Of a DNA stretch of 64,000 nucleotides, positions 3,354-7,025 are shown one piece after another. Position numbers and translations under genes: made by a program. The stretch is taken from positions 1,488,001 through 1,552,000 of the forward strand of contig NZ_JBDOIO010000004.1 of the NCBI RefSeq assembly GCF_039831995.1, read 5' to 3'. The first letter of the stretch is position 1. Each line of letters opens with the position of its first letter. Source of the DNA: Paenibacillus pabuli. GTDB lineage: Bacteria > Bacillota > Bacilli > Paenibacillales > Paenibacillaceae. The notes beneath the pieces were generated by a model that did not search any database, had not been told where the DNA came from, and was given only the letters and a program-made list of their open reading frames with translations.

Positions 3354-6300
3354 ATGACCAGAACAGATTACCCAGTAGAATTGGCTGAACCACTGCTTTC
3401 GCTGCGCAAGGCAATGGAGCAGACAGGAGACCATACTGCTGTACAGGCTTTAACGGATCTGATGAACAAGGCCGAAATGAAGCAACTGACGATCGCGTTT
3501 TGTGGACACTTCTCAGCAGGAAAATCAAGTCTGATCAATAGTTTATGTGGTAAACGGGTGCTGCCATCAAGTCCTGTTCCGACAAGTGCCAATGTCGTGT
3601 CCATTCGCAATGGTGCGCCGCGAGCGCTGATCTATACGGCTGCAAACGAAAGCGCTGACAATCAGGGAGGACTGGCAAATCCCATCGAGGTCTCACCTGA
3701 GCAGTTGGAGGAGTACTGCAAAAATGGTGGTGCATATCGTTCCATTGAAGTGTGGGATGATATTCCTTTGCTATCCGATGACGCTGTGCTGCTTGATACA
3801 CCAGGAGTGGACTCGACTGACCGGGGACATGGTTTGGCAACACATTCGGCGCTTCACCTTGCTGATGTGGTGTTTTATGTGATGGATTATAATCATGTTC
3901 AGTCTGAGAGCAATTTGTCTTTTGCCAAAAGTCTGTCGGATTGGGGTAAGCCATTGTTTCTCATTGTGAATCAGATTGATAAGCATCGGGAACGGGAGCT
4001 TGCGTTCGACGACTATGTAAAAGGCGTAGAGGCGATTTTTGGCGCGTGGGAAGTCAGGTATGACGGCCTCTTGTTCACTTCGCTTCGCGATAAGGATCAT
4101 CGTTATAATCAATGGAATGTGCTCCCTGATTTGATTCAACACATGTTGAAAGAGAAGGAAGCTCTAATTCGTCATAGCCTTGCAAGTTCAGCCAGCCATA
4201 TCACTGAGCAGCACTTGATCAGACAGGCGGAACAGCGTGAGGACGAAGAGGCGGCTCTGCTGGAGGAGATCGGAGGACAGGAGGGCATTGAACGACTCGA
4301 ACGAGAGCTTGATCAGTTAAAGGCTGAAGAAGAGGAGCTTCGTGCCAAGCCCGCACGTGAGCGTGAGAAGTTCCGTGGGGAGCTGGAGTCCCTGTTAGCA
4401 AATGCAAATCTTACTCCCGCAGATATCCGTACGTCGGCGGCCTCCTATCTTGAGAGCCGGAAACCTGGGTTTCGGGTTGGACTGCTCTTCTCAGGCGGTA
4501 AAACTGAACAGGAGAAGCAGCGCCGTGCAGCTGAACTTGTGAAAATGCTTCAGGATCAAACTTCCGGTCAAGTGGAAGTGCATATTCGCACCATGCTTCG
4601 GAAGCTGGGAGAAACGCATCAGCTGTGGAGTCCGGACTGGGAACAGGCGTTGAATGCCGAACTGCCTGTTCTGGATGAAGCACTACTGGAGATGAAACGA
4701 AGCGCTGGCGCAGAGGTGTCTCCCGAGTACGTGCTTCAATTCAGCAAGGAGGTGCGGGGCGAGATTGAGGCACGCTACCGCAGGTCGGCCATGATGCTGG
4801 CCGACCGGATGCTTGAGGCGCTGGGCGCGCAGGGCGAAGCCGCGCTCCAGGCGCTGGACGCCAGACGCACAGCGCTGCTGGCGCAATCCGCGGCGGCGGC
4901 GCGCTATACGGCGCTGCAGCGCACCGCCGCCGCCGAGGCAGCAGGGCTGCGCAGCCTGCTGCCTCCTGCGGGCCCCCTCACCTCCGGGCTGTTGCCGGAG
5001 GTGCGTGGCCCGCATGTGCCCGCGCAAGAGCCGAGCGAAGCTCACGGCTCTGACCCGGGCACATCAGCGTCTGTGGCGGTGCAGCCACAGACGGAGGCGC
5101 CGCCGCGCAAAGCTGCGGCGCATATGCAGCCGGCGGCTGGCGCACAGCGCCGCCGGCGCCTGGACGCAGCTGCGGCACGGCTGGAAGCCGCCGCTGCGCT
5201 GGTAGAGCCGTACCCCGCCATGGGTTCGGCGGTACGGGATCTGCGTGCACGCGCGGCTTCGCTTGCGGGCGGCACGTTCACCCTGGCGCTGTTCGGAGCA
5301 TTCAGCGCCGGGAAGTCCTCCTTCGCCAACGCGTTGCTGGGCGAAGCTGTACTCCCCGTATCCCCGCATCCAACGACAGCGGCGATTAACCGGATCATGG
5401 CTCCGGCCGGGGGCGCGGAGCATGGAACGGCCCGGGTCCGAATGAAGACCCAGGCAGCTTTTCAGGAAGATCTGGCTTATTCCTTCCGTTTGCTCGGATT
5501 GGGCGAACCGGGAGCGGATTGGCAGAAACAGGTCAAATCCCTATCGCCACAAGATGTGCATCCCGCAGGACGGCCGCACTACAGCTTCCTGCAGGCGGCG
5601 GCTGCAGGCTGGGATGACACGGCAGATCAGCTTGGTCAAGATGTTCAGGTGGACCTAGGCGGGTACCGCGATTTTGTGGCCAATGAACGGAAATCCTGTT
5701 TTGTCGACAGCATTGATCTGTACTACAGCTGTGATGTTACGGAACAAGGCATTGTTCTGGTGGATACACCCGGAGCCGACTCGGTGAATGCCCGTCATAC
5801 AGGTGTAACATTCAATTATATGAAGAACGCGGACGCGCTTATCTTCGTAACCTACTATAACCATGCCTTCTCCCAGGGGGATCGTCAGTTTCTCAATCAA
5901 CTGGGACGGGTGAAAGACAGCTCCGCCATGGATCAGATGTTCTTTGTGGTAAACGCCAGTGATTTATCATCATCCGAAGAAGAGCTTGGACAGGTACTGG
6001 ATCATGTCAGTACTCAGCTGCGAACCAATGGGATTCGGGCACCACGATTATTTCCCGTTTCTAGCCTGCTTGCAATGGAAGGTAAAAGCACGGGGGATAC
6101 GGATATGCTGGAGCAATCAGGTTTTATCCGTTTTGAGGAAGAGTTTAATCGGTTCGCTGGCTCGGAACTTGCCGACCTGGCTGTTGGAGGTGCTGCTGAA
6201 GAGCTGTCAAGGGTTATTCAGCGGCTGGATCAGCGTGCTCACGATGCGGTTCAGGGTGAAGAGGTGCTGCAGCAGCGCAGGCAAGAACTGCATGCCGTCA

Positions 6301-7025
6301 TGGATCAATCCCTCGCACGAATTCGAACCCTTTCCGAGCGATCCATGAGAGAAGAACTTGCTCAGGAAACGGTTGAATTACTTTTTCATGTCAGACAGCG
6401 GCTCGGTTATCGCCTGGGACTGTTTATGGCAGAAGCGTTCCATCCTTCCGTTCTGCGTGAAGACCGTGGCAATCTGAAAGGTGCATTTGCTGCATGCGGA
6501 CGAGAACTGCTGCGTATGATCGCTGTAGAGCTGGAACAGGAATTGCTTGCGACTACACTCCGACTGGAGCAGGCAGGGAAGAGCTGGTTAATGAAGCAGA
6601 TCGATGATTGCGTTCAGGAACTACAACGATCCGGAGGAATGGATCTTTCGCTTGCTTTTAATGAAAACTGGAGCACACCTGTGCTGGAAGAGATCCGGCT
6701 GGAGGAACCGTCGGGCTGGAAAACGTATCTTAGCTATTTCCGCAATCCGAAGCAATTCTTTGAAGGGGAGGGGAGACAGAGACTCCAGGAAGCGCTGGAT
6801 CCGGTAATTAAACAAATGGTGGCTGGCGTCCTTCCCGCTGCACAGGAAAAACTGATTCAGTTCTACGATGCCCAACTGCATCAGTCGCTGCAGCATCAAT
6901 CCAGCCAGTTGGAGGATCGACTGAAGGAAGCTGTTGCTGCATTGAATGAGACACTGACAAGCGGCGTTCCAGCAGAGAAATGGCATAGTCTTTCAGTCCA
7001 AGTGCAGCAATTCGTACACGAATAA
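3354..7025 (+). CDS. dynA: Two-GTPase bacterial dynamin-like protein (DynA type)
   Basis: A 1,223-residue fusion of two dynamin modules, the architecture of Bacillus subtilis DynA (YpbR), which tethers and fuses membranes and helps membrane repair after phage or antibiotic stress (family knowledge). GTPase 1: P-loop GHFSAGKSS near residue 50, G3 DTPGVDS near 148, G4 NQID near 206. GTPase 2: P-loop GAFSAGKSS near residue 649, G3 DTPGADS near 804, G4-like NASD near 867. Helical stalk segments follow each GTPase. Residues about 476-601, between the modules, are an Ala/Arg/Pro-rich linker encoded by an unusually GC-rich, palindrome-filled stretch (separate entry). The ATG at 3354 follows GGGGGAAGG. 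The gene is monocistronic and is closed by a terminator. Confidence 0.9.
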   Translation: MTRTDYPVELAEPLLSLRKAMEQTGDHTAVQALTDLMNKAEMKQLTIAFCGHFSAGKSSLINSLCGKRVLPSSPVPTSANVVSIRNGAPRALIYTAANESADNQGGLANPIEVSPEQLEEYCKNGGAYRSIEVWDDIPLLSDDAVLLDTPGVDSTDRGHGLATHSALHLADVVFYVMDYNHVQSESNLSFAKSLSDWGKPLFLIVNQIDKHRERELAFDDYVKGVEAIFGAWEVRYDGLLFTSLRDKDHRYNQWNVLPDLIQHMLKEKEALIRHSLASSASHITEQHLIRQAEQREDEEAALLEEIGGQEGIERLERELDQLKAEEEELRAKPAREREKFRGELESLLANANLTPADIRTSAASYLESRKPGFRVGLLFSGGKTEQEKQRRAAELVKMLQDQTSGQVEVHIRTMLRKLGETHQLWSPDWEQALNAELPVLDEALLEMKRSAGAEVSPEYVLQFSKEVRGEIEARYRRSAMMLADRMLEALGAQGEAALQALDARRTALLAQSAAAARYTALQRTAAAEAAGLRSLLPPAGPLTSGLLPEVRGPHVPAQEPSEAHGSDPGTSASVAVQPQTEAPPRKAAAHMQPAAGAQRRRRLDAAAARLEAAAALVEPYPAMGSAVRDLRARAASLAGGTFTLALFGAFSAGKSSFANALLGEAVLPVSPHPTTAAINRIMAPAGGAEHGTARVRMKTQAAFQEDLAYSFRLLGLGEPGADWQKQVKSLSPQDVHPAGRPHYSFLQAAAAGWDDTADQLGQDVQVDLGGYRDFVANERKSCFVDSIDLYYSCDVTEQGIVLVDTPGADSVNARHTGVTFNYMKNADALIFVTYYNHAFSQGDRQFLNQLGRVKDSSAMDQMFFVVNASDLSSSEEELGQVLDHVSTQLRTNGIRAPRLFPVSSLLAMEGKSTGDTDMLEQSGFIRFEEEFNRFAGSELADLAVGGAAEELSRVIQRLDQRAHDAVQGEEVLQQRRQELHAVMDQSLARIRTLSERSMREELAQETVELLFHVRQRLGYRLGLFMAEAFHPSVLREDRGNLKGAFAACGRELLRMIAVELEQELLATTLRLEQAGKSWLMKQIDDCVQELQRSGGMDLSLAFNENWSTPVLEEIRLEEPSGWKTYLSYFRNPKQFFEGEGRQRLQEALDPVIKQMVAGVLPAAQEKLIQFYDAQLHQSLQHQSSQLEDRLKEAVAALNETLTSGVPAEKWHSLSVQVQQFVHE
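4783..5157. repeat. Cluster of perfect inverted repeats in the dynamin linker (GC-rich island)
   Basis: At least seven inverted repeats follow one another in the coding sequence. Arms are: 4783-4790/4799-4806 (GGTCGGCC), 4935-4945/4955-4965 (GAGGCAGCAGG, 11 bp), 4979-4987/4995-5003 (CACCTCCGG), 5014-5022/5056-5064 (ATGTGCCCG) with GAGCCG/CGGCTC nested inside, 5068-5077/5084-5093 (CGTCTGTGGC, 10 bp), 5101-5106/5115-5120 (CGCCGC) and 5129-5137/5149-5157 (GCCGGCGGC). Individual 60-base lines here are 70-80% GC by hand count (4921-4980: 48 of 60), well above the rest of the gene. The frame stays open throughout. Confidence 0.85.

Follow-up and report, generated by a model that had tools for sequence, protein, structure and literature searches.

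Probable selection for base pairing in a chain of GC-rich hairpins within a dynA-like gene of Paenibacillus pabuli

The host gene and its hairpin island

We analysed a window of 64,000 nucleotides from Paenibacillus pabuli (assembly GCF_039831995.1, contig NZ_JBDOIO010000004.1, positions 1,488,001 to 1,552,000), in which a GC-rich chain of hairpins lies inside the coding sequence of a DynA-like, two-headed dynamin-like GTPase. The host gene is an open reading frame of 1223 amino acids on the plus strand (3354..7025). Pfam finds Dynamin_N in two stretches of the protein (E 1.3e-63), which shows that two dynamin GTPase modules, hereafter D1 and D2, are present. The family NCBIfam NF052648 covers residues 19-1184 with 727 bits. 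Because this is below its cut-off of 1600, we call the protein DynA-like, not a certified equivalog, and refer to the gene as dynA for simplicity. In Bacillus subtilis, DynA remodels membranes and also gives protection against phage (PMC8844932). The island of hairpins spans the D1/D2 junction and the Pro/Ala/Ser-rich linker of the host protein.

We counted perfect inverted repeats with arms of at least 8 and loops of 3-40 bases. Seven such repeats, none overlapping another, lie between 4743 and 5309, their arms being 9-11 bp long and their loops 6-33. The GC content of this interval is 0.735, and it ranges from 0.68 to 0.78 in the 120-nucleotide windows of 4740-5339, against 0.42-0.59 in the windows outside 4680-5640. 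Shuffled sequences gave on average 0.98 repeats when mononucleotides were shuffled, 1.46 for dinucleotides, 1.63 for local dinucleotides, 1.33 for codon order, and 1.89 for synonymous codons. None of the 300 shuffles of any of these five kinds reached seven non-overlapping repeats. When overlapping repeats are counted there are 10, a number matched or exceeded by one of the 300 synonymous shuffles. The longest arm (11) is by itself ordinary, an arm of this length or more occurring in 6-36 of 300 shuffles. Among the 334 windows of the 64 kb, the two that cover the dynA island are the richest in repeats. If weaker stems are included, the hairpins nearly abut between 4859 and 5237 and then continue over the second P-loop (5285-5309 and 5321-5346).

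A sequence-only reading of this DNA had described a hairpin chain in a GC-rich island at 4745..5310, including a GGCGCTG/CAGCGCC pair that reaches the second P-loop, and had proposed a comparison with shuffles matched in composition and codons. The chain is real and withstands this comparison, and the pair is present at 5285-5309 with 7 bp. The location was also right, and the extent somewhat too small: the element proper, a GC-rich zone of suppressed synonymous divergence defined by a dip at fourfold-degenerate sites and a drop in G<->C differences, covers about 4740..5280, and weaker constraint continues to about 5450. A search of the whole genome of the strain found no further copy of the island, other matches having E values of 1.8 or worse. 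A dispersed palindromic repeat, which would have copies elsewhere in the genome, is not supported by this search.

Conservation across relatives

All 75 genomes of the genus that were searched have a dynA match. We aligned 66 genes of the genus after dropping 13 of 79 loci (L042-L044, L064, L071-L079), which were fragments, frameshifted or partial matches; 13 partial ones were likewise dropped among the loci collected later (L198, L240, L248-L258). The nearest group, clade A, comprises 41 aligned full-length orthologs with 78-96% protein identity. All 41 keep 5-10 repeats, with a mean of 7.39 against 1.88 in synonymous shuffles, and only one of 820 such shuffles reaches the observed value. Among the 25 more distant genes of the genus, six have more repeats than all 60 of their own shuffles, and six have no repeat at all.

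A wider search gave matches in 292 of 295 genomes, from which 40 genes of nine other genera of the family, taken to be Paenibacillaceae, were used. The GC content of the island is at least 0.70 in 39 of these 40 orthologs, and in 33 of them the number of repeats is reached by at most one of 60 synonymous shuffles. By this latter measure, the island occurs in at least one genome of eight of the nine other genera, the exception being g7 (L164). In other families of the order, at most one of 40 shuffles reaches the count in 5 of 20 orthologs. Several hairpin places are maintained across genera, and equivalent places, e.g., 4975-5007 and 5165-5198, bear hairpins with differing arms. The earlier description of a "region that collects hairpins" thus holds, and it does so outside this species as well.

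Synonymous constraint

The profile of fourfold-degenerate sites was built on 19 of the 41 clade A genomes in bins of 120 nucleotides. Outside 4674-5513, differences at these sites amount to 0.49-0.64 (about 0.58) in 23 of 24 bins, and in the four bins of 4794-5273 they fall to 0.10-0.24, a 2-6-fold drop. Three of these four bins show no drop in amino-acid differences. The ratio of third-position differences to those at first and second positions is 4.6-4.9 outside and drops to 1.3-1.7 in 4859-5128. No such drop is seen in 5129-5280 (5.8-6.5), a part in which the first and second positions hardly vary. The synonymous dip is repeated in the genera g13 and g18.

Differences between G and C at fourfold sites of clade A are tenfold rarer inside the island (0.015 vs 0.147, a ratio of 0.10x), and therefore neither a GC bias nor GC-biased conversion is the cause of the dip; an island of GC-biased gene conversion is ruled out on these grounds. 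The same ratio is 0.12x in g18 (4 genome pairs), 0.27x in g13, and 0.39x in g17, and it is 0.67x in the hairpin-poor clade B4. Distances between genomes in the island track those in the rest of the gene, with a correlation of 0.81 in clade A and of 0.49-0.87 in other clades, which indicates slow vertical change. Rates in stems are about half of those outside stems at all three codon positions. For this comparison stems were defined in the parent, since a split into paired and unpaired states among pairs chosen by their support is partly circular.

The constraint extends to the two hairpins of the second P-loop, GGCGCTG/CAGCGCC at 5285..5309 and CTTCGCC/GGCGAAG at 5321..5346. In clades A, B2, and g13 the codons of their arms hardly vary, and those of the former hardly vary in g18 as well. 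The third bases of the loops are less fixed, being more variable in A and g13. In the six genomes lacking the island these arm codons are more variable.

Covariation of the arms

We counted substitution events on trees inferred from the remainder of the gene, and used as a control the same arms with partners slid by 1-3 columns. Two-sided Watson-Crick replacements on the same branch occurred 38 times, against 1-5 times with slid partners. When the control was limited to slid pairs that are themselves Watson-Crick, there were 40 replacements in 13100 true pairs and 10 in 14092 slid ones. Single mismatches returned to a Watson-Crick state in 20 of 276 cases, whereas slid partners did so in 17 of 694. 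A second, independent count, made on 29 genomes with a structure taken from one of the rows, a choice that favours this structure in the share of cells paired, found 58 two-sided cells, against 20.3 in shuffles (none of 500 reaching the observed value) and 1-21 with slid partners. The number of pairs with a two-sided change was 12 in this set, against 8.3, with 7 of 500 shuffles reaching 12. Examples are the pairs 5068/5093, which goes from C-G to A-T, and 5072/5089, from T-A to A-T. Compensatory changes in both arms, which the sequence-only reading had named as the sign of a selected structure among relatives, were therefore found.

These changes are spread over the chain, for which we give stem support as a count among the 41 clade A genomes. 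The perfect repeat at 4783..4806 (9 bp, loop of 6) has a support of 29/41, and it is followed at 4859..4883 by a stem of 6 bp (CGCCAG/CTGGCG) that has 7 bp in most relatives (35/41). The hairpin at 4890..4933, a perfect repeat of 10 bp here, aligns with stems of up to 16-19 bp in relatives and has compensated pairs at 4892/4931 and 4893/4930, both from G-C to T-A. Next comes the perfect repeat of 11 bp with a loop of 9 at 4935..4965 (36/41). An outer stem at 4968..5013 surrounds the hairpin 4979-5003 (9 bp, CACCTCCGG/CCGGAGGTG), with a change from C-G to T-A at 4974/5007; in other genera this site has hairpins built from other arms. At 5014..5064 lies a perfect repeat of 9 bp with a nested GAGCCG/CGGCTC, of which pairs 5014/5064 and 5015/5063 covary. 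The hairpin at 5068..5093 (10 bp, loop of 6) is compensated at 5068/5093, 5070/5091, and 5072/5089. Downstream of the linker hairpin described below, there are a perfect repeat of 9 bp at 5129..5157 and a 12-bp hairpin at 5165..5198 that has one mismatch here (11/12 paired), is perfect in relatives (37/41), and has a pair, 5171/5192, seen as A-T, G-C, and T-A. The last stem before the P-loop is a perfect one of 7 bp at 5208..5237 (38/41).

The linker hairpin at 5097..5121 (7 bp here) is the variable part of the chain: its arms differ by species, some having been re-made wholesale, with in-frame insertions and deletions. The Pro/Ala/Ser-rich linker as a whole (5040-5130) has such in-frame changes between species, and the hairpin is kept or rebuilt.

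Folding and the strand

We computed folding energies for 41 islands, chosen among 106, relative to synonymous shuffles. The mean z was -5.5 for the sense strand and -5.9 for the antisense strand, and values were nearer 0 in several islands without hairpins. Antisense folding was better than the shuffle expectation by 3.4 kcal/mol (Wilcoxon p 0.003, over 41 genomes that are related and thus not independent).

If the hairpins fold in the mRNA, changes that produce G.U pairs on the coding strand should be better tolerated than those that produce A.C pairs. This expected wobble tolerance was not observed. In a stratified test, sense G.U changes occurred at 0.58 of the non-stem expectation and A.C changes, which are G.U on the minus strand, at 0.88. 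The ratio of the two is 0.66 (column bootstrap 0.46-0.90) and has the same direction in five of five clades. Tree events with unambiguous states gave 73 sense G.U and 101 A.C changes in six clades, and 75 vs 110 in five clades (p 0.012). As a mutational control, the non-stem columns of the island had 207 G.U-like and 206 A.C-like changes. Raw counts, before correction for place, were 94 A.C vs 34 G.U among the cells of clade A; for single mismatches they were 39 A.C vs 9 G.U in 106 islands and 66 vs 15 in 165 islands (shuffles 13.8 and 13.5). These comparisons of sequences mildly favour the minus strand. The strand test is therefore evidence against a ribosome brake and a mild lead to a minus-strand RNA, without being a proof of it.

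Further islands in the genome

In a sample of 1.544 Mb of the same genome (22% of it, window included), at least five repeats were found in 5 of 7956 windows. Two of these windows belong to dynA, and the remaining three to two further islands. The second island (L357:9500-10260, at about 109.5-110.3 kb of contig C5) is in a gene for an 842-amino-acid U32 peptidase-like protein (L357 8877-11405). It has six repeats, against 0.64 in 100 synonymous shuffles, and a GC content of about 0.60-0.63. The third (L342:19000-19850, at about 3.044 Mb of contig C3) covers the gene of a futalosine hydrolase of 276 amino acids (L342 19006-19836). Its GC content is 0.67, and it has five repeats, against 1.04 in synonymous shuffles. 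In three relatives this island has 5-8 repeats, against 0.8-1.3, and G<->C differences among the four genomes are 0-0.19 by bin, a range given without a flank control.

One may tentatively see in these cases a class of intragenic hairpin islands of the Paenibacillaceae, each with about ten abutting, covarying, GC-rich hairpins that share no motif and would be selected for pairing. A handful of genes per genome would carry one, and each would be either a structured minus-strand RNA or a signal at the DNA level. There would then be three islands in 22% of the genome, and the dynA island, given its presence in eight of the nine other genera tested, would be an old member of the class.

Interpretation and rival explanations

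The sequence comparisons argue that selection acts on base pairing in the dynA island, beyond what the protein requires, and we put the probability of this at about 0.85. We read the island as a structured nucleic-acid element that is under selection inside a coding sequence; the selection is well supported, and the acting molecule and its function are inferred. About a dozen short GC-rich hairpins, spread over 0.5-0.6 kb of the dynA coding sequence at the junction of the GTPase modules, are probably kept by purifying selection for their base pairing, besides the protein, and the pairing would act in a nucleic-acid molecule made from the dynA locus. Because the pattern of wobble changes leans mildly towards the minus strand, our first guess is a structured antisense RNA that would span the D1/D2 junction, with hairpins that shield it or expose it to a partner. 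Such an RNA would tune the expression of dynA, either through base pairing with its mRNA or through interference with its transcription. This antisense mechanism, suggested by the sequences, is possible although more likely wrong than right; the combined account, in which a pairing-selected chain acts through a nucleic acid of the locus with antisense RNA as first guess, is tentatively the best overall explanation. An element that tunes DynA would have physiological reach, because the DynA of Bacillus subtilis remodels membranes and protects against phage (PMC8844932).

Several results weigh against this account, some of them against the selection of pairing and others against the antisense RNA. 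True pairs are broken only 28% less often than slid ones (391/13100 vs 581/14092), i.e., pairing is favoured but not rigid, and only 11 of 40 compensated pairs (hand count) are of the transition type that passes through a G-U step. Arm sequences are replaced between genera, the GC island and its hairpins are missing from the dynA of L066-L070 and L164, and most members of clade B4 have few hairpins. The synonymous dip is shallower in g17, and that of g18 comes from only three genome pairs. As for the strand, synonymous changes alone give a ratio of 0.75 with an interval that includes 1 (0.49-1.21), third codon positions in stems show no difference between C>T (38/3019) and G>A (49/4525), and mismatches counted by distinct place are 25 A.C vs 14 G.U, a single g13 hairpin accounting for 27 genomes. 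It is because of the synonymous interval and the third positions that we speak of a mild lead only. A simple scan of both strands of 4400-6000 found neither a sigma-70-like promoter nor an intrinsic terminator, although its expectation was low (shuffles give just 0.3 and 1.2), and no Rfam family reached its gathering score, the 8 matches up to E 5 being all far below. The hairpin-poor clade B4, L066-L070, and L164 provide natural controls.

Pairing could instead matter in the DNA itself, as single-stranded or cruciform hairpins involved in replication pausing, protein binding or chromosome handling. Acting at this level, the hairpins need not show RNA-type wobble tolerance on either strand, and compensation is indeed mostly transversional (29 of 40 pairs, hand count) and does not go via G-U, while stem rates at third positions are alike for C>T and G>A. 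The starts of contigs inside or near the island in 22 of 227 genomes, detailed below, also suggest DNA that is hard to sequence, but sequencing gaps are uninformative about the cell. The strand asymmetry, if real, requires one strand, and we know of no DNA function that needs a row of unrelated hairpins; on balance we consider this reading rather unlikely. More unlikely in our view is a structured mRNA that slows the ribosome, or the RNA polymerase, and gives D1 time to fold ahead of the synthesis of D2; for the ribosome, the sequence-only reading had already raised this idea. The position over the D1/D2 junction and its linker fits, as does the sense folding (mean z of -5.5), slowed translation at the borders of domains has been discussed (PMC7829197), and the U32 protein of the second island has two Peptidase_U32 stretches. 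The strand test disfavours it, however, as sense G.U-forming changes are suppressed like G<->C changes (0.58 for both) and more than A.C-forming ones, with the reservation on synonymous changes made above. Furthermore, the constraint continues into the P-loop of D2, and a role at domain boundaries alone is made less likely by the third island, whose futalosine hydrolase has a single Pfam domain.

The hairpins might also lack a function, being made and repaired by template switching, a process proposed as maker and keeper of hairpins that causes instantaneous two-sided changes with no G-U step (PMC8794818). The two-sided changes seen here, also without this step, fit the proposal, and the linker hairpin at 5097-5121 changes both arms together, with a stem that is extended in some species (by eye). 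This hairpin may be an exception re-made by template switching. For the island as a whole such a history is quite unlikely as the main driver, since the other footprints that the proposal of PMC8794818 leads one to expect are scarce: compensation of several bases is rare, with 38 one-pair runs and a single two-pair run (1 of 39, with no null computed), inverted loops are at chance (1 of 33 vs 1.1 expected), and hairpins hold several places across genera. Template switching alone would not be expected to lower divergence either, yet fourfold divergence falls several-fold. The related suggestion of a mutational hot spot is contradicted by the slower evolution of the island, at fourfold sites and in G<->C changes. 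A protein gene overlapping in another frame is very improbable. Open reading frames of 118-130 amino acids do overlap the island in this genome, but when dual coding was checked, first by stop counts and afterwards place by place, the longest stretch free of stops in every one of the 41 clade A genomes had 345 nucleotides (frame -2, 5105-5450) and those of other frames 93-237. As no other frame is open throughout in all 41, a reading frame spanning the island is ruled out, and dual coding would in any case not be expected to give covarying stems. Least probable of all are chance, protein composition or GC bias. The codons GCG (Ala) and CGC (Arg) are each other's reverse complement and composition does raise the expectation, to 1.1-3.8 repeats in synonymous shuffles of GC-rich islands; clade A nevertheless has 5-10 against 1.88 and a tenfold reduction of G<->C changes, on which GC bias has no influence, and in L132 the third-position GC is 0.33 outside and 0.70 inside the island. 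The shuffles, the G<->C fall, and L132 together rule these causes out.

Relation to known systems

Hairpins that lie in-frame within coding sequences are also known from REP/BIME and the Rickettsia palindromic elements. The dynA island differs from these in having no copies in its own genome and in having arms that are mutually unrelated. Conserved RNA structures inside viral coding sequences have been found by synonymous constraint with FRESCo (PMC4376164), and they share with the dynA island a local loss of synonymous divergence. In contrast to such elements, the island lies in a bacterial chromosomal gene, consists of half a kilobase of tandem hairpins with arms that turn over, and has a wobble pattern at odds with the coding strand. 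In E. coli, selection on mRNA structure (PMC3763529) similarly filters changes by their structural effect, but as a tendency over essential genes in laboratory evolution, whereas dynA has one sharp island in many species. Hairpins produced by template switching (PMC8794818) resemble the island in their perfect stems and simultaneous two-sided changes, and differ from it in that here multi-base compensation is rare, loop inversion is at chance, and divergence is reduced. Slow-translation signals (PMC5438181, PMC7829197) have also been placed at the junction of two domains; these are clusters of rare codons, whereas the island is characterized by base pairing that is not typical of the mRNA strand.

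A literature search that covered few subscription journals found no description of hairpin islands in dynA or in Paenibacillus genes, nor of selection for pairing over half a kilobase within a bacterial protein gene in many genera. The dynA island offers a testable case for a hidden RNA or DNA function in coding sequence.

Assembly breaks at the island

By hand count, 22 of 227 genomes searched, draft assemblies from a range of species, have a contig that starts with a cut dynA match, i.e., a match at most 40 bases from the first base of the contig and cut between query residues 426 and 613 (G011, G018, G020, G032, G042, G195, G337, G339, G352, G355, G152, G168, G289, G363, G368, G371, G115, G169, G190, G230, G241, and G267). 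The starts fall at the equivalent of window positions 4629-5193, inside or beside the island, which looks like a barrier to sequencing. As a consequence, dynA may often appear split or missing in databases. In five other cases, L044 (G010), G202, G284, G323, and G258, the dynA match is broken in frame or contains stops, through sequencing error or in reality, and the assemblies are unbroken there.

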